From positions 1 to 20,392 of the IMG/VR virus record IMGVR_UViG_3300027839_000082: 20,392 nt of DNA, one strand, 5' to 3'. Every line of letters begins with the position of its first letter. Within the stretch, counting starts at the first letter, position 1. The notes beneath the pieces were generated by a model, which did not search any database, had not been told where the DNA came from, and saw only the letters and a list, made by a program, of their open reading frames with translations. Source of the stretch: a virus. Positions 2,236 through 12,146 of the stretch are shown here, one piece after another. The position numbers and the translations under genes are program-made.

Positions 2236-2731
2236 ACCAAAACCAATAGATGATATGTTTGATAAATTAACAACAACCCAGAAGATGATAAAGCTTGGTG
2301 AAGAAATGATTGGTTTGATAATCGAAAGAACTCAAAGAGGTTATGGAGTCAATGGTTTATTTAAGGAGTATTCGAGAAAAGGATTAAATCCTTACTGGAA
2401 AAGAAAGCAAAGGGGAGAAGGTAAAGCGTTCAAAGGTCAATCTGAAAAACACAAGCCGAACAGTCCCAGGGATGTCAACCTAACTTTAACAAGTAAGATG
2501 TTAAGCAGTCTTAGAGTTAAAGGTAGCACAACTGCGGATCAAGTAACGATAGGGATGCCAGGTACAGAAGCGATTAAAGCAAACGCACAAGAATTACAAG
2601 GGAGAGCCATGTCAACTACTGCTAAACCAGTAACGACAATGGAAGAAAAATTTATTGCTGAATTCTTTGGTAAGGAAATTAAAAAAGCCATGAAAGATGC
2701 AAGCGGTAGAACAAGGATAGTAATTGGATAA
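2228..2731 (+). CDS. Virion morphogenesis protein (Mu gpG / P2 gpS-like)
   Basis: The gene has a GTG start and encodes 167 residues, overlapping the minor head gene by eight bases. The basic centre (NPYWKRKQRGEGKAFKG) is followed by LTLTSKMLSSLRVKG at about residues 85-99, a V-x-I-G strand, and KPV ... KFIAEFFGKEIKKAM near the end. The order 'LTxTGxLxxS(I/L)', a beta strand ending in I-G, a gap, then a proline-led FLG-like tail resembles virion morphogenesis and tail-completion proteins of the Phage_tail_S group. In those phages the protein joins or stabilises the head-tail interface. The match is loose, so a related minor head or neck role is possible. No membrane segment is visible. Confidence 0.55.
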   Translation: MAKPKPIDDMFDKLTTTQKMIKLGEEMIGLIIERTQRGYGVNGLFKEYSRKGLNPYWKRKQRGEGKAFKGQSEKHKPNSPRDVNLTLTSKMLSSLRVKGSTTADQVTIGMPGTEAIKANAQELQGRAMSTTAKPVTTMEEKFIAEFFGKEIKKAMKDASGRTRIVIG

Positions 2732-2750
2732 CTCACAAAAGAGGATATAA

Positions 2751-3278
2751 ATGTCAAACGAAGAAGTCGGTCAGGACGAAAAAACTGAAGCCATCGGTCA
2801 GGATGTAAAAACTGAAGTCGTAGAGAGCAACGATAAAGCTGAAGATTATAGTGTTCCAGGCTATCGTTTCAAAGAACTCAATGAGAAAAATAAAGCCCTT
2901 GAATCCAAAGTAAAGGCTATGGAAACCGATGCAAAAACAAAGGTTGAATCCGAAGCCGTGGAACGAGAAGAATTTAAAGAGTTGTATGAAGCTGCAAAAG
3001 TTGAGCGTGATAAATACGCCAGCGATGCGGAAAAATATTACTCCATTGAAGAATCTCGTAAGAGCAGACTCCTTGAGTCTTTTCCAGAAAACCTTAGAGA
3101 GAAAATGTCTAAGTTAGATTCTGAAACGCTGGAACAAATGAAAACAGAATTTACAAATAAAATACCTCAAGTAGATAATAGCGGTGGGGGAGTATCTGGT
3201 GGAAAGGTGTTGGAATGGAAAAACCTTACAGCAACAGACCGAAAGAAGAACTTCGCTGATATTATGAGGAAAAAATAG
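2751..3278 (+). CDS. Capsid scaffolding protein
   Basis: The product is 175 residues: an acidic, disordered N-terminus rich in repeated GQD-x-K-T-E blocks (residues 6-25), then a long charged coiled coil (about 37-100, KNKALESKVKAMETDAKTK and onward). A short basic C-terminus ends in MRKK. This charge-polarised helical layout immediately before the major capsid gene is typical of scaffolds, where a basic tail binds the coat protein and the scaffold leaves on maturation. A G-rich hinge (NSGGGVSGGK, about residues 143-152) separates the coil from the capsid-binding end. A good ribosome binding site (AAAAGAGG) ends seven bases before the ATG. No head maturation protease gene is visible beside it, so it may be released whole. 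Confidence 0.82.
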   Translation: MSNEEVGQDEKTEAIGQDVKTEVVESNDKAEDYSVPGYRFKELNEKNKALESKVKAMETDAKTKVESEAVEREEFKELYEAAKVERDKYASDAEKYYSIEESRKSRLLESFPENLREKMSKLDSETLEQMKTEFTNKIPQVDNSGGGVSGGKVLEWKNLTATDRKKNFADIMRKK

Positions 3279-3289
3279 AAAGATAAACA

Positions 3290-4159
3290 ATGGCAAATGT
3301 AACTTTAACAACGGCTGCCGTATTCGTCCCAGAAGTATGGAAGGATGCAATCCTTGATTATGCTGAAGCAAATTTCAGAATTCGTAATCAAGTTACTAAT
3401 GTTTCCGACATCGCTTCTGGTGATACAGTACATGTCCCGAGAATTTCTCAGGAAACTGCAGCCGCAAAAGCAGCTGGCACAATAGTAACCTATTCTGCTC
3501 AGACTGATGGTGAAGTATCGATAGCAATCGATCAACATGCTTATGAAGCAAAACGGATTGACGATATAGTCCGTGTCCAGGGATCATATGACCTCTTTTC
3601 TTTATATGCTAAATCAATGGGATATGCTTTAAGTAAGAAGATCGAGAATTACCTTGCACTCTTAATTCAAAGTGCTACAGCAAATGATGTTACTCTGGCT
3701 GCAGACAACACATTTACTACGGCTGAAGTGCGTTCCGGATTACAGAAATTACTCGATGTGAATGTAGACTACACCAATGGAGAAACGCATCTTTATGCTT
3801 CCCCTGCTGGTTATATGGGTCTTATGAGCCTCGGTGAATTCTCTGACTTCCAAGAGCGTGGTCCAGAAGCTGGCGGTGGTGCTGGTCCAAATATTACTGG
3901 TCAACTTGGCTCCATTTATGGAATGCCAGTTTACACCAGTACTGATTGGGATGACGATGGCGGAACTGGTGACGAGACCGCTTCCATCTTCACAAAAGAA
4001 TCGGTAATGTTTGCAATGCAAATGGAACCAAGAGTGCAGTCAGTATATGACATCGATTTTTTATCCACAAGTGTGGTAGCCGATGTTTTATTTGGTGCGT
4101 CTCTGACTCAAGCGGTAGGTACTGCAGCAGGTCAAATCGTAAACTTCAATAATCCCTAA
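3290..4159 (+). CDS. Major capsid protein
   Basis: The product is 289 residues, within the range for HK97-fold coat proteins. It sits directly after the scaffold and is closed by a strong terminator. The N-terminal text VFVPEVWKDAILDYAEANFRIRNQV, then SGDTVHVPRI, then the acidic-to-basic stretch AYEAKRIDDIVRVQGSYDLFSLYAKSMGYAL with a helix KKIENYLALLIQSA, is the familiar layout of coat proteins of marine podo- and siphoviruses: N-arm, E-loop strand and spine helix. A YASPAGYMGLMSLGEF motif and the strand VMFAMQMEPRVQSVYDIDF near residues 240-260 match the P-domain and end strand of the same group. There is no long N-terminal delta domain, consistent with a separate scaffold. The leader before the ATG is weak (GAAAG). 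Confidence 0.88.
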   Translation: MANVTLTTAAVFVPEVWKDAILDYAEANFRIRNQVTNVSDIASGDTVHVPRISQETAAAKAAGTIVTYSAQTDGEVSIAIDQHAYEAKRIDDIVRVQGSYDLFSLYAKSMGYALSKKIENYLALLIQSATANDVTLAADNTFTTAEVRSGLQKLLDVNVDYTNGETHLYASPAGYMGLMSLGEFSDFQERGPEAGGGAGPNITGQLGSIYGMPVYTSTDWDDDGGTGDETASIFTKESVMFAMQMEPRVQSVYDIDFLSTSVVADVLFGASLTQAVGTAAGQIVNFNNP

Positions 4160-4181
4160 TCGGATAGGTTGAACTAAGAAT

Positions 4182-4216
4182 AGGTGGGGGGCTTTAATTA
4201 GCCCCCTAACCTTTTT
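4182..4216 (+). terminator. Intrinsic terminator after the capsid gene
   Basis: GGGGGCT (4187-4193) pairs with AGCCCCC (4200-4206) around the six-base loop TTAATT. The stem extends through G4186:T4207 and T4185:A4208 and, with one bulged A, to AGG:CCT outside. A run of five T follows directly. This is a textbook rho-independent terminator. It lies 22 bases after the capsid stop and 24 bases before the giant fibre gene, so it can lower fibre expression relative to capsid. Confidence 0.9.
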
Positions 4217-4239
4217 AAACTTTTAAAAGGAATAGAATT

Positions 4240-7200
4240 ATGGCAACAGATTTAACAAATGTAGCTGTCTCCACTGGATATGTTCAATTATTACATATTG
4301 ATGGTGGGGTTGGGGGATCTGTCACTCGTGTTTACGATGGTGACGGAACAGGTACACCATTACAAATATCTACATCAGAAGTACAAATTTTAGATGGTTC
4401 TTACAACTTTGATGTAGCTTCTCACGATGGAACAAACGGATTAAAGTTAGGGGGAACTTTAGTAACGAGTTCTGCAGCTGAATTAAATTACAATGATATA
4501 TCCACGCTTGGTACAGCCCAGGCGAGTAAGGTATTAACAGTCGATTCCAGTTTAGATGTTACTGGTATAAGGAATTTGACCGCTACAGGAACTGTCCAAG
4601 CAGCCAATTTTACTGGCACAGGGAATACTCAGATAGGAGATGCGGCAGCAGATACAGTAGCGATGAATGCTACGATCACAACGAATTTAATCTTTGAGGG
4701 ATCAACCGCTAATGCTTACGAAACAACTTTAGCAATAACCGATCCAACCGCTGATAGAACCTGGACGATTCCAGACTCAACAGATACTTTTGTTGGGAAG
4801 GCGACCTCTGACACTTTAACAAATAAGATTTTAACAGCCCCAGATATTAATACGCCAGATATTGATGGCGGTACAGTGGATGCGATTACAACTTTGACAG
4901 TAGCGAACTCAGTCGATATTGGGAACTATACTTTAACGGCTAATGGGTTAACAATTGATGGGACATTTACAGATGGAAGTCTATCTATCGCAAGTGGATC
5001 CATTGCAAGCGCAGTGAATGGAACTTTTTCTGGAACTGTTCAAGCGGAACAATTAACCACAACCGATGACTTAACAGTTTCGGGATTAGCAACTATCGGT
5101 GAAACTCTTGCCGTTACAGGCGTGGCAACTTTCACGGCACAATCGGTACATAATGGAGGCTTGAGTACAGGGGCTTTGGTTATGAACGATGGATCTATTA
5201 CAGATACAAGTGGAACTATAAATTTTGGAAACGAGAATTTGACCAGTACAGGCGTTGGGACTTTTGCCTCACTGGACATTAGCGGTAACGCCGATATTGA
5301 TGGGACTATGGAAGCAGATGCGTACACAGTAGATGGAACAACATTGGCTGAGTATATTGCAGATACAGCAGGGGCTATGGTTTCAAGCAATACCGAAAGC
5401 GGTATCACAGTAACATATCAAGACGGAGATAATACAGTTGATCTTTCTGTGGATGCTGCTCAAACAGGTATAACTTCGATTTATGCTACAGATTTAATTT
5501 TAGGAGAAGATTCTCAAACTGCTATTGATTTTGGAACGGCAAATGAGATTGACTTCAAAGCAGATAATGCAGCCAGATTAACATTAACCGCTTCGGCCTT
5601 ATATCCTGTAACTGATAACCAAATAGATTTAGGTACAAGTTCCTTAGAATTTAAAGATGCTTTCTTTGACGGAACTGTTACATCAGATACTTTTACTGAT
5701 GGTACTTTATCAGTAGCCAGTGGGTCTATATCGAGTGCGGTAAACGGAACCTTTTCTGGAACAGTTCAAGCCGAACAACTTACGACTACAGATGATCTAA
5801 CTGTTTCGGGTCTGGCTACAATAGGTGAAACACTTGCGGTAACTGGAGTGGCAACCTTTACGGCTCAGTCAATCCACAATGGTGGAATGAGTACAGGAGC
5901 ATTAGTATTAAATGATGGTTCAGTTACAGACACCAGCGGTGCAATCTCTTTTGGTAATGAAAATTTAACAACTACTGGAACACTGGGAGCAGGAGCAACC
6001 ACAGTAACATCATTAAGTGCAACTGAAGGGAATATTACAAATGTAGGTGATATAGCTCTGGATTCCATTAGTGCGGATACGACTGATATTAATGTAGCTG
6101 TATCTGATAATTCAGCGACAGCTTTCACGGTCAAGCAAGGAACAGATGCTTATCTTATTGTGGATACCGCTAACACGAGTGAGTCGGTAGCCATTGGAAC
6201 TGGTATCTCTGGAACGGCAGTATCTATAGGTCATGGAACTTCCGAGACAGTAGTCAATGATAACCTTACTGTAACAGGAGATCTTACTGTATCAGGAACA
6301 ACCACGACAGTATCTTCTGGAACTCTAACTATTGGAGATACCTTAATAAAATTAGGCCAAGCATACACAGGAAGTGCTTACGACCAGGGGATTGTATTCA
6401 CCAGAGGCGATGGATCGAGTACCAATACGCAGAACATGGCCTTTATCTGGGATGAATCTGCTGATACCTTCGCAGCAATTAAAGCTGCAACAGAAGCAGG
6501 AACGACTTCGGGTAATGTCACGGTAACAGATCATGTACCTTTAAGAGTCGGTGCTTTAACGGCAGATGACGCTTCAACTTTTACAAGTACAATCTCAGCA
6601 GCCACAGGATCTACGATTGGCAACTTAACTTTAGCCAACGGATCCATAACTGATTCTTCTGGTGCTATTGATTTCGGAAATGAAAATTTATCAACCTCTG
6701 GAACATTAGGAGCAGGGGTTATCACAGCAACTGGTTTAACAATCGGAAGTGCGGTCATAACAGAAGCTGAATTAGAGATTTTAGATGGAGCAAGTTTATC
6801 AACTACAGAATTGAATTATGTTGATGGAGTTACTTCGGCAATCCAAACTCAGATAGATACAAAAGCACCTCTCGCAAGCCCAACTTTTACAGGAACAATC
6901 ACTATTGGTAGCGCAGGGATTAGCGAAACAGAATTAGAAATCTTAGATGGCTTGACAGTTACGACTGCCGAACTTAATATCATGGATGCAGACACAGTTC
7001 AAGCAACTGTGACATTAGCAGCAACAGACGGAGTCGTGATAAGCGATGGTACTGTAATGAAACAGGCTTTGGTATCCGACTTTGAAGTCTATATGGAAGC
7101 CAACCTTGATACAATGGGATCACAGTTTACTTCTGCAAGTTCATTGGCTACTGTGGGAACGATCGGAACTGGTACTTGGGAAGCAACGGATGTTGCAGTG

Positions 7201-9501
7201 GCACATGGTGGAACTGGAGCAAGCACACTCACTGATGGTGGTATTTTATTAGGTAGTGGAACAAGTGCAATCACAGCCACAGCAGTTTTGGGTGATGGTG
7301 AAATTTTAATTGGTGACGGAACAACTGATCCAGTGGCACTTGATATTGGAAGCTCAACAGCAGTCACGACACTTGGGACAATCACAACAGGTGTTTGGAA
7401 TGCCGGAGCAGTTACTTCTTCAGGCGTAGGTACTTTTGCTTCATTAGATATTAGTGGAGCCATAGATGTGGATGGAGTTACCAACCTTGATGTAGTGGAT
7501 ATTGATGGTGCTGTAGATATGGCAAGTACATTAACTGTTATTGGGAATGTTGGTATTGGGGCTGCTCCAAGTGCTTGGAACGCTTTACACGAAGCAATTC
7601 AGTTTGGCAACGCTGGTATTGCATACAGAACCAGTAACAACACACTTTCTATTATGGGGAATGCTTATTATGAATCTTCAGGAAGTGCTAATCCTACCTA
7701 TCTCTCAAATAATGAGGCAACTGAACTATCTTTATCTGATGGTGCTTTTGTTTTTAGAAGTGCGAGTGCAAGTACTGGAACTATTTCCTGGTCAGAAAAA
7801 ATGAGGATTGATTCAGCAGGTACAGTAACATTAACAGGTGTTACAACCAAATTATCTAGTACTGCTGCTCAATTATGGATAGGTGAAGGTGATGGTGCCA
7901 CTGACCTTTATTTCTCAAAAGGTGATACTAATGAAGAAGTAAGATTTTCTAAAAATGGAGGTGGTGATTTAGATATTCTTACCAATGCAGCCACTTTACA
8001 CCTTGACCAAGACGGCGAGGGATATTATTCTGGCGGGAATTTTGGGATTGGGGGAACTCCGGCCTCAACTACACACTTACAAGTAAATAATGACACGATA
8101 AATACAAGCTCAGATTTTTATGGGATTTACGCTAACCATACAAAAACATTAGGTACTTCTAGTGTTGGAGATTTAATGACTGGCATTCGTTCTTATATGG
8201 TTTTCAATGATGCTGATGCCGCTTATAGCAACGTAATAGCCGGAAGTTTTGAGGCTATTGGTCAGTCGTCATCGGGTGAGTGCGTAGGAATAATAGGAAT
8301 AGATGTCACAGCCTCATTTGCTGCTGGTGATATAAATAGTATCTACGGAGCTAAAATAGTTACAGATATTAATGGTGGCACAATAGACAGTTCAGCGTAT
8401 GGTATTTTTAATCAAATTGATTTGGAAAGTGGCGTTAGTGGTTCTTTTTCCAATTATGGATATTTCGGTAATGTCGATTCAGATACAGATGTGGCTACTT
8501 ACGGTGTATATTATGAGGGAGCTAGTAATCAGGATTACCATTGGGTTGGGTCTAGTAGTACTGTAGGTTCTATTACTTCAAGAATAAGTGATGCTGGTCT
8601 AATAGAGGCGAAAACTACAACTATATCTGGTCTTGACTATGCAGAGTATTTTGAGTCTAAAGATGGAAAATCGATTGCCGTAGGAATGACTGTTAAACTT
8701 GACGGAGATAAAATAGTCGCTTGTAGTGATGGAGATACGCCAATAGGTGTTGTTAGACCTCTTGGCTCTTCAGGTGTTATTGGTGGTGACCAACCTTTCC
8801 ATTGGCAAGGTAAGCACGAGAAAGATGTATATGGTGGTGTTGTAATGGAAGACTTTACTAAAACAAAATGGGAAACTGAAGTCGATGAGGCTGAATATGT
8901 TAAAAGAAAAGACGAGAAGGAACAACGGAAATATAAAAGAGTTGAAGGCAGTGAAGCTATTCCAGCTGTAGATGCAGTTACACAACAAAAGACAGTTGAT
9001 GAAGAAGTCGAAGAAGAAGTGACTACCGCAGAAGTTGTATTAGAAGATGGTAAATATGTACAAAAGACCACTACTGAAACTGTAACTAAAACAGTTAAAG
9101 TTCCTCAATATAATGAAGTAGATTTATACGATAAAGATGGCGAAGTGATTGGTAAACATCAAGTCCCAATAATGGAAACTGTTGAAGAAGCTGTAGCGGC
9201 TGTTGATGCGGTAGCTGATACTTACTTTAGGAAACATAAATATTATTCAGATAGAATCCCAGATGGGCTAACAGCTCCTGATGATGCTGAAGTTATAAAT
9301 AGAAGTGATAAGCGACCAAAGTTAAACTCAAGCTATGATGCTTCCAAAGAAGAAAGTTATAAATCAAGAGAAGAACGGGATGAATGGCATATCGTTGGAT
9401 TACTTGGACAGATTCCTATTACCAAAGGGCAACCGATGGCAGATAGTTGGATTAAAATGAAAGATGTTTCAGATACAGTTGAAATGTACTTTGTGAAATG
9501 A
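4240..9501 (+). CDS. Giant tail fibre / appendage protein with C-terminal Peptidase_G2 chaperone domain
   Basis: The product is 1753 residues. The first 1100 or so are low-complexity beta repeats rich in Thr, Ser, Gly, Asp and Ala, with recurring units such as T-x-AELN-x-x-DG, GTxTIGS, NFGNENLTSTG and TKAPLASPTFTG, typical of fibrous phage appendages. Residues 243-338 and 485-580 are two copies of one 96-residue module. From about 1105 to 1460 the text changes to less repetitive sequence (IGAAPSAWNALHEAIQFG; IYGAKIVTDINGGTIDSS) that may form the receptor-binding tip. Residues 1466 to the end match the IMC autoprotease domain (see 8635-9501). The ATG follows an AAAAGGA ribosome site and a terminator. 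Likely role: trimeric host-binding fibre, with the domain acting as an intramolecular chaperone that cuts itself off. Its place between head and neck genes is unusual. Confidence 0.85.
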   Translation: MATDLTNVAVSTGYVQLLHIDGGVGGSVTRVYDGDGTGTPLQISTSEVQILDGSYNFDVASHDGTNGLKLGGTLVTSSAAELNYNDISTLGTAQASKVLTVDSSLDVTGIRNLTATGTVQAANFTGTGNTQIGDAAADTVAMNATITTNLIFEGSTANAYETTLAITDPTADRTWTIPDSTDTFVGKATSDTLTNKILTAPDINTPDIDGGTVDAITTLTVANSVDIGNYTLTANGLTIDGTFTDGSLSIASGSIASAVNGTFSGTVQAEQLTTTDDLTVSGLATIGETLAVTGVATFTAQSVHNGGLSTGALVMNDGSITDTSGTINFGNENLTSTGVGTFASLDISGNADIDGTMEADAYTVDGTTLAEYIADTAGAMVSSNTESGITVTYQDGDNTVDLSVDAAQTGITSIYATDLILGEDSQTAIDFGTANEIDFKADNAARLTLTASALYPVTDNQIDLGTSSLEFKDAFFDGTVTSDTFTDGTLSVASGSISSAVNGTFSGTVQAEQLTTTDDLTVSGLATIGETLAVTGVATFTAQSIHNGGMSTGALVLNDGSVTDTSGAISFGNENLTTTGTLGAGATTVTSLSATEGNITNVGDIALDSISADTTDINVAVSDNSATAFTVKQGTDAYLIVDTANTSESVAIGTGISGTAVSIGHGTSETVVNDNLTVTGDLTVSGTTTTVSSGTLTIGDTLIKLGQAYTGSAYDQGIVFTRGDGSSTNTQNMAFIWDESADTFAAIKAATEAGTTSGNVTVTDHVPLRVGALTADDASTFTSTISAATGSTIGNLTLANGSITDSSGAIDFGNENLSTSGTLGAGVITATGLTIGSAVITEAELEILDGASLSTTELNYVDGVTSAIQTQIDTKAPLASPTFTGTITIGSAGISETELEILDGLTVTTAELNIMDADTVQATVTLAATDGVVISDGTVMKQALVSDFEVYMEANLDTMGSQFTSASSLATVGTIGTGTWEATDVAVAHGGTGASTLTDGGILLGSGTSAITATAVLGDGEILIGDGTTDPVALDIGSSTAVTTLGTITTGVWNAGAVTSSGVGTFASLDISGAIDVDGVTNLDVVDIDGAVDMASTLTVIGNVGIGAAPSAWNALHEAIQFGNAGIAYRTSNNTLSIMGNAYYESSGSANPTYLSNNEATELSLSDGAFVFRSASASTGTISWSEKMRIDSAGTVTLTGVTTKLSSTAAQLWIGEGDGATDLYFSKGDTNEEVRFSKNGGGDLDILTNAATLHLDQDGEGYYSGGNFGIGGTPASTTHLQVNNDTINTSSDFYGIYANHTKTLGTSSVGDLMTGIRSYMVFNDADAAYSNVIAGSFEAIGQSSSGECVGIIGIDVTASFAAGDINSIYGAKIVTDINGGTIDSSAYGIFNQIDLESGVSGSFSNYGYFGNVDSDTDVATYGVYYEGASNQDYHWVGSSSTVGSITSRISDAGLIEAKTTTISGLDYAEYFESKDGKSIAVGMTVKLDGDKIVACSDGDTPIGVVRPLGSSGVIGGDQPFHWQGKHEKDVYGGVVMEDFTKTKWETEVDEAEYVKRKDEKEQRKYKRVEGSEAIPAVDAVTQQKTVDEEVEEEVTTAEVVLEDGKYVQKTTTETVTKTVKVPQYNEVDLYDKDGEVIGKHQVPIMETVEEAVAAVDAVADTYFRKHKYYSDRIPDGLTAPDDAEVINRSDKRPKLNSSYDASKEESYKSREERDEWHIVGLLGQIPITKGQPMADSWIKMKDVSDTVEMYFVK
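4966..5253 (+). repeat. Fibre module, copy A (96 codons)
   Basis: This stretch encodes residues 243-338 of the fibre, from FTDGSLSIASGS to FGNENLTSTG. The same 96-residue unit recurs at 5692-5979 with ten substitutions, nearly all conservative. Residues 15-60 of the module are identical in both copies, while the DNA there differs at about 31 of 138 positions by my count. A shorter relative covering the last 22 residues of the unit lies at 6637-6702. Confidence 0.95.
5692..5979 (+). repeat. Fibre module, copy B (96 codons)
   Basis: This stretch encodes residues 485-580 of the fibre, the second copy of the module at 4966-5253, in the same frame and orientation. The two starts are 726 bases (242 codons) apart. 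About 29 of the 46 codons in the identical core use a different synonymous codon from copy A. The duplication is therefore old or has been kept free of long DNA identity. Confidence 0.95.
8635..9501 (+). other. Peptidase_G2 / IMC self-cleaving chaperone domain of the fibre
   Basis: The domain begins at SGLDYAEYFE (D1466, Y1467, A1468, E1469), the family's conserved entry motif. TVKLDGDKIVACSDGDTPIG and VVRPLGSSGVIGG follow, then WQGKHEKDVYG (W1522), and after a long insert RPKLNSSYDASKEE and EWHIVGLLGQIPI (H1717). The same ordered blocks occur in C-terminal domains of phage appendages such as phi29 gp12, which trimerise the spike and then self-cleave near the start of the domain. The insert of about 120 residues, very rich in Lys, Glu, Val and Thr, separates the halves. 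Cleavage near D1466 would release about 288 residues. Domain identity is by motif order; cleavage is inferred. Confidence 0.8.
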
Positions 9502-10899: not shown

Positions 10900-11394
10900 A
10901 TGGTTAGCATTGACCAGGTAAGAGATTTGATCTTTAAAGTCTGTCACGGATTGCAAGACAAGTTTTCTTCAGACGATGCCATTCAACTTGTCCTGGAAAC
11001 TGGATTGGTGGAATCCAATTATAAGTTTTTAAGGCAATTAGGAAATGGTCCAGCCAGAAGCTTTTGGCAGATAGAGCCATCCACCGCAGTTGACAATCTA
11101 CAGCACTATTTGAAACATAGAACTCCGCTAATGCACAAATGCGCAGATGTAAGTATTGTCGATTTAAAGCATTGGCAGAATTATTCAGATCCCTTATGGT
11201 CAGATATATTAGAAAAGAATATGGCGGCAGCCATAATCCATTGCCGTTTGAAGTACTGGAGAGTGCCGAAGCGAATGCCAAATACCTTAGAAGGCCGGGC
11301 TGAATATTGGAAGACATATTACAATTCTTCTGATGGGGCTGGCACAGAGGAAAAATATGTTGAAACGATAAAAGGGATGAGAGACCTCTTGTGA
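10900..11394 (+). CDS. Lysozyme-like / lytic transglycosylase-like protein
   Basis: The product is 164 residues. The segment LETGLVESNYKFLRQLGNGPARSFWQIEP (residues 32-60; two blocks) reads like the active-site part of the lysozyme superfamily: an E-S pair (E38-S39) equivalent to the catalytic Glu of soluble transglycosylases, then G-P-A-R-S-F-W-Q in place of the usual G-x-x-G-L-M-Q loop. The rest (AAAIIHCRLKYWRVPKRMP; EGRAEYWKTYYNSSDGAGT) matches a family common in aquatic phages and usually listed as hypothetical. It would cut peptidoglycan, either as the endolysin or as a virion-associated entry enzyme. Position after several small membrane genes favours lysis. No signal peptide is visible. 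Its stop overlaps the next start (GTGA). Confidence 0.65.
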   Translation: MVSIDQVRDLIFKVCHGLQDKFSSDDAIQLVLETGLVESNYKFLRQLGNGPARSFWQIEPSTAVDNLQHYLKHRTPLMHKCADVSIVDLKHWQNYSDPLWSDILEKNMAAAIIHCRLKYWRVPKRMPNTLEGRAEYWKTYYNSSDGAGTEEKYVETIKGMRDLL

Positions 11395-12146
11395 TTACAA
11401 AGACAGCGATAGTTATTCCAGATCAGCACTTCCCAATTCACGACCAGAAGGCGGTTAATTGTGCCTTAGAAATTATCAAGATTGCGAAGCCTGATATGTT
11501 TATTAATCTTGGGGATGTCGGCGAATGGGAAACAGTAAGTGCCTGGCGTTGGAGAGATAAAAAGCAACCGCCATTAGAATATCAACTTCCATTAATAGAT
11601 GAGGAAATTGAAGCGGTTAACGATGGAATAGATCAGTTTGATCAGGTGTTGGATAAAGTCGGTGTTGAGGAAAGGCATATTCTTGAGGGCAATCATGATT
11701 ACTGGCTGAATAATTTCGTGAATAAATACCCATATCTGAAAGGATATAGATTCAAGAACGCCTGCCATTGGGATAAAAGGGGCTACAAGTTTCACAGTAT
11801 GAATCGGCCGTTAAGGATTGGAAAATTATCTTTTATTCATGGAGCCTATGTAACTATGAACCACGCTAAAAAACACGCTGAGATTTATGGCAATTTAGTC
11901 TATGGGCATACTCACGATGTTACTTCTTCGGCTATCGGGAGACTGGATGGAACAGTTAAGGCTTGGAGCCTGGGCAATTTGAAAGACATGACCGCCGAAA
12001 AGAATGAATGGTTGAAGGGGAGAATACATAATTGGCAACACGCCGTAGGGCATATCACTTGGTTTAAGAATGGTAATTTTAAGGTTGAGGTAATTGATAT
12101 TGTAAAAGGTGTAACCGCTTTTAGAGGTGAAGAAATCAATGGATAA
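11391..12146 (+). CDS. Calcineurin-like metallophosphoesterase
   Basis: The product is 251 residues from a GTG start that overlaps the previous stop. All metal-binding blocks of the superfamily are present in order: PDQHF (D11, H13), NLGD (D42), EGNHD (N101, H102), FIHG (H150) and VYGHTHD (H173, H175). It should therefore be an active two-metal phosphoesterase, hydrolysing phosphate mono- or diesters. The substrate cannot be read from the sequence: nucleotides, nucleic acid ends and host signalling molecules are all possible. Phage members of this group are widespread and mostly uncharacterised. No signal peptide or membrane span is seen, so it acts in the cytoplasm. Its place inside a late structural operon suggests late expression. 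Confidence 0.88.
   Translation: MITKTAIVIPDQHFPIHDQKAVNCALEIIKIAKPDMFINLGDVGEWETVSAWRWRDKKQPPLEYQLPLIDEEIEAVNDGIDQFDQVLDKVGVEERHILEGNHDYWLNNFVNKYPYLKGYRFKNACHWDKRGYKFHSMNRPLRIGKLSFIHGAYVTMNHAKKHAEIYGNLVYGHTHDVTSSAIGRLDGTVKAWSLGNLKDMTAEKNEWLKGRIHNWQHAVGHITWFKNGNFKVEVIDIVKGVTAFRGEEING
12124..12130 (+). promoter_or_regulatory. Strong ribosome binding site that fixes the start at 12139
   Basis: GAGGTGA lies inside the end of the metallophosphoesterase gene with eight bases between it and the ATG at 12139. An in-frame GTG at 12127 falls within the site itself and so is unlikely to be the start. Confidence 0.75.

Follow-up and report, generated by a model that had tools for sequence, protein, structure and literature searches.

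Two copies of a phage fibre module, alike in protein and different in DNA, probably have separate ancestries

A phage tail fibre gene carries a 96-residue unit twice in one open frame, and the central core of this unit is identical in protein between the two copies while its synonymous codons differ as much as independent codon choice would make them. We demonstrate that copies A and B are not each other's closest relatives, that copies in different genomes have diverged in the same manner, that similarity to other fibres breaks off sharply at module edges, and that a second fibre, in contig L006, parallels the pattern. These observations are very probably explained by the shuffling of modules among phage fibres combined with strong constraint on the protein. 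The window analysed here is the whole stretch of 20,392 nucleotides that makes up positions 1 to 20,392 of IMG/VR record IMGVR_UViG_3300027839_000082.

Results

The fibre gene and its C-terminal domain lie at the following places.

4240-9501, + strand: tail fibre or appendage gene, 1753 amino acids, with a C-terminal Peptidase_G2 intramolecular chaperone-type domain (ORF, Pfam, phrog and PDB matches)
8563-8922, + strand: Peptidase_G2-like domain, fibre residues 1442-1561 (Pfam PF11962)

The Pfam match (E 5e-25) scores 88.6 bits and is thus above the curated cut-off of 25, and the gene also matches phrog_4775, a pre-neck appendage, and the PDB chains 3gqh and 6qz9. Given these C-terminal matches to Peptidase_G2 and to pre-neck appendages of the phi29 type, the protein most likely serves in receptor binding, as an appendage that carries a chaperone-type domain. 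The modules belong to the N-terminal two thirds of the protein. The 96-residue unit matched nothing in annotated phages, to which low-complexity filtering possibly contributes, and the AlphaFold2 monomer prediction made for the module with a 10-row alignment was too poor to use (pLDDT 55, pTM 0.24). Elsewhere in the window, a metallophosphoesterase-like gene (11391-12146; Pfam Metallophos_2, E 4e-5, just under the curated cut-off) stands among the phage structural genes.

Copies A and B are read in the same phase and are offset by 726 bases.

4966-5253, + strand: copy A of the 96-residue unit
5008-5145, + strand: 46-residue core of copy A, with zero residue changes relative to copy B (codon comparison)
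5692-5979, + strand: copy B of the unit
5734-5871, + strand: 46-residue core of copy B (codon comparison)
6469-6702, + strand: degenerate third copy, 38% identity over residues 21-96

Apart from the two cores, these features come from sequence comparison. Our recount of the core agrees exactly with the sequence-only reading: 46 of 46 residues are identical, and 31 of 138 bases and 29 of 46 codons differ. The base changes fall at third positions in 28 cases and at first positions of leucine codons in the remaining 3. A and B differ over the full units (96 codons, 288 bases) at 77 bases, at 69 codons and at 10 residues, and these ten substitutions, which had been described as lying outside the core and mostly conservative, are indeed mostly of that kind (S/T, I/V, A/S, L/M, T/A, N/S). 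Where the residue is the same, 59 of 86 codons differ. Similarity is lost abruptly in the flanks, with the same residue in only 6 of 100 flanking codons. Both copies are also present in a second contig that is 99.95% identical over 10,877 bases and may not be an independent sample. Only five differences separate the two contigs over about 11 kb, and two of them, 5955 and 5958, fall within copy B at a spacing of three bases; each is synonymous (GGT/GGC, AAT/AAC) and one gives copy A's codon. A short motif of the SITDTSGAISFGNENL type occurs at three places in the window fibre (5194-5241, 5920-5967 and 6643-6690). Across fibre-like ORFs of 73 loci it is found 224 times, at most nine times per ORF, and is followed by 109 different contexts, as a frequent module end or seam would be.

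If the codons of each copy are picked separately according to the codon usage of the window's genes, the core should show 29.0 ± 3.1 different codons, compared with 29 observed. At the 86 same-residue positions the observed 59 lies a little above the expected 53.7 ± 4.3, by no more than 1.3 standard deviations; when only the fibre gene supplies the codon usage, the expectation is 52.0 ± 4.3 and the deviation 1.6 standard deviations. The 77 base differences over the full units compare with 80.4 ± 6.0 in simulated pairs, and the longest exact run shared by A and B is 11, compared with 14.0 ± 3.6 (P=0.31). The synonymous sites of A and B are saturated, with no divergence beyond independent codon choice. 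As the codon difference equals the expectation for independent draws, selection for divergence is not called for. Several dN/dS estimators fail at saturation, and the NG86 dN of 0.010 for the A/B core is a path-averaging artefact, with zero residues differing.

The unit recurs in other viral contigs. L005 resembles the window over 2642-5693 at 78% DNA identity and has one copy there, whose core protein is identical to the window's although 44 of 90 same-residue codons differ from unit A. In L007 the last 38 core residues are unchanged with 17 codons different, and the two copies in L006, separated by 219 bases, have 38 of 38 residues identical and 26 codons different. NG86 estimates were dN 0.031 and dS 1.38 for A and L005, 0.025 and 1.21 for A and L007, 0.077 and 1.82 for B and L005, and 0.050 and 2.47 for B and L007, from which dN/dS between contigs is about 0.02-0.04. 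The strong constraint in both places that the sequence-only reading had suspected is borne out by these values and by the core being kept in other contigs. Since the portal-position and capsid genes reach a synonymous codon difference of 0.49-0.51 against the same relatives, the synonymous divergence of the unit is the background of the group. Relative to L005, 94% of the unit's residues are kept compared with 86% for the capsid, and at such a background the conservation of the unit equals or exceeds that of the capsid. For the portal-position and large tail proteins no annotated phage relative was found. When the module profile was run against species genomes, nothing but two weak partial matches came up, both in Neomarinimicrobiota MAG contigs (L247 and L248), which are a possible lead to the host; a relative of the window's capsid was sought in these genomes and not found.

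In a DNA tree of ten module copies over 74 codons, whose inner branches are mostly unsupported, the sister of copy A is L006 copy 2 (99/99 support, 93.7% DNA identity). A and B as sisters are rejected (p-AU 0.0018), and so are the two L006 copies (p-AU 0.0045). For copy B no close DNA relative was found, the best standing at 78%, which leaves some room for an old duplication followed by exchange of A. The two copies are hence not each other's closest DNA relatives, as a recent in-place duplication would have left them. It had been argued from the window alone that recent duplication or gene conversion would keep the DNA alike, and the DNA of A and B excludes both; the point missed was that A and B may have arisen otherwise than by duplication in place. 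One finding named as speaking against the earlier interpretation, namely modules having independent closest relatives with different protein, was encountered in part: copy A does have an independent closest relative in L006 copy 2, but the protein is nearly the same (1 of 74 residues differs).

An old duplication inside the fibre lineage, with purifying selection acting on both copies and time alone saturating the synonymous sites, would fit saturation and protein identity equally well. It would also agree with the N-terminal 22 residues (FTDG...VNGTF), which precede the portion that every copy has, are found in A, B and L005 and are absent from most other core copies, pointing to an ancestor of these three with the same arrangement. 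Nevertheless, we regard such a duplication as unlikely, given that A groups with L006 copy 2 over 74 codons, that A and B are rejected as sisters, and that B is absent at the corresponding place in L005, which is syntenic to 5693. Moreover, a duplication after the split from L005 does not fit, because A is nearer to the L005 copy (44/90 codons different) than to B (59/86).

The boundaries of the shared segments are as follows (from sequence comparison and match ends).

5032-5698, + strand: block 95.5% DNA-identical to L006, where it follows a different module copy; a putative recently exchanged segment
5254-5691, + strand: intervening fibre segment, DNA identity 97% to L006, 95% to L027/L030 and 89% to L005
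5685-5699, + strand: seam at the left edge of copy B, where similarity to other fibres starts or stops in 20 loci

Shared segments with differing flanks, as expected of a mosaic fibre, are found in two comparisons: the window and L006 share 5032-5698 with unrelated upstream contexts, and 5270-5698 is 94.6% identical to L027/L030. At 5692 five relatives (L005, L006, L020, L027 and L030) carry FFDGTVTSD-AFAGPLTG instead of copy B, although these are incomplete contigs with fibre frames cut off, and a copy B further downstream is possible. Matches to 20 loci have an end within 5685-5699 and matches to 12 loci within 5025-5039, compared with at most 9 per 15-base bin under random placing (99th percentile); these sharp recurrent boundaries are indicative only, as the loci are partly related and were chosen by similarity. 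In L006 the N-terminus and copy 1 consist of L026/L010-type DNA (84-92%), and copy 2 and the downstream part of window- and L030-like DNA (94-96%). L006 is thus a chimera whose parts meet where the module core starts, and it reproduces the pattern of the window independently, through recombination between genomes.

The same pattern in other long fibre repeats had been put forward as a check, and we surveyed 354 fibre-like ORFs from 214 loci for within-gene identical-protein runs of at least 25 residues. The 65 within-gene pairs, from 37 ORFs, range in codon difference from near 0 to above saturation, and 11 loci indeed have a pair at 0.9 of saturation or more. Identical runs between genes cover the same range of divergence. 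The fibre ORF of L189 contains a 68-residue identical repeat (residues 293-360 and 666-733, 0-based) with 41 codons different, which is a stronger case than the A/B pair of the window.

As an alternative, the sequence-only reading had considered that synonymous divergence is itself selected, stopping recombination between A and B and the deletion of 726 bases. Phages recombine readily, and among diverged pairs the within-gene median is slightly above the between-gene median (0.79 versus 0.70 of saturation; p=0.06, not significant, rows not independent). However, this alternative is very improbable in our view. Codons, bases and the longest exact run show no excess over saturation, copies in separate genomes, which are unable to delete each other, are similarly diverged, and near-identical repeats exist within other fibre genes (6 of 65 pairs below 0.2 of saturation). 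In addition, short-read assembly tends to drop DNA-identical repeats, and this alone could bias the within-gene set upwards and produce such a difference. That two phages' fibres were joined by the assembly, which in metagenomic contigs such as these can misjoin at repeats, deserves hardly any credence, as the frame is open throughout, L006 is a separate case of the same pattern, and the whole arrangement recurs in the second contig (possibly not an independent sample).

Discussion

In module shuffling under strong protein constraint, the fibre would be a mosaic of modules that circulate among related marine phages. The modules would be old and their proteins under strong purifying selection, so that copies arriving from separate lineages would look similar as proteins, with no trace of kinship in their synonymous codons. 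Copy A sits in a context shared with relatives. As to the direction and order of exchange, we infer that copy B was added at the module seam, where recombination with a diverged fibre gene is its most likely source. Less likely, B may have been kept from a much older duplication and copy A exchanged later. The constraint on the protein may have a structural cause, such as a place in a trimeric shaft or in an adaptor.

Phage tail fibres and tail spikes have been documented as domain mosaics before (Smug et al. 2023, PMC10684548). As in that study, high-identity fragments are common to otherwise different receptor-binding proteins in differing orders; the window fibre differs in that the same fragment stands twice in one protein, with different ancestries. 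Persi, Wolf and Koonin (2016, PMC5120217) likewise compared dN/dS of repeats inside one protein and reported accelerated evolution between repeats with relaxed selection. In contrast, constraint on the two copies of the window is not weaker than on copies from different genomes, in keeping with separate ancestry and not with a fresh duplication. The contrast with fast divergence of within-protein repeats vanishes because A and B are not each other's closest relatives. With phi29 gp12-type appendages and Peptidase_G2 tail spikes (PF11962, phrog_4775, 3gqh, 6qz9) the fibre shares the C-terminal autocleavage-type chaperone domain and sequence just ahead of it (fibre residues 1241-1541). It differs from them in its N-terminal 1200 residues, where the modules are located and for which no family or solved relative was found here, and in about 190 residues that follow the matched part of the domain.

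A further, tentative and rather unlikely reading is that fibres keep repeated modules for long only if the donors had already diverged, DNA-alike copies being deleted by recombination. If this were true, synonymous divergence between circulating parts would decide which fibre architectures stay stable. A literature search on whether diverged codons protect repeats from recombination gave nothing usable.

Overall, the window offers a clean example of fibre repeats that are identical in protein and different in DNA, very probably through separate ancestry and constraint on the protein, with no special selection on codons. It is also a warning that within-gene fibre repeats should be placed in a tree with other genomes before they are called duplications. 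In this phage group, a fibre module changes no faster than the capsid.
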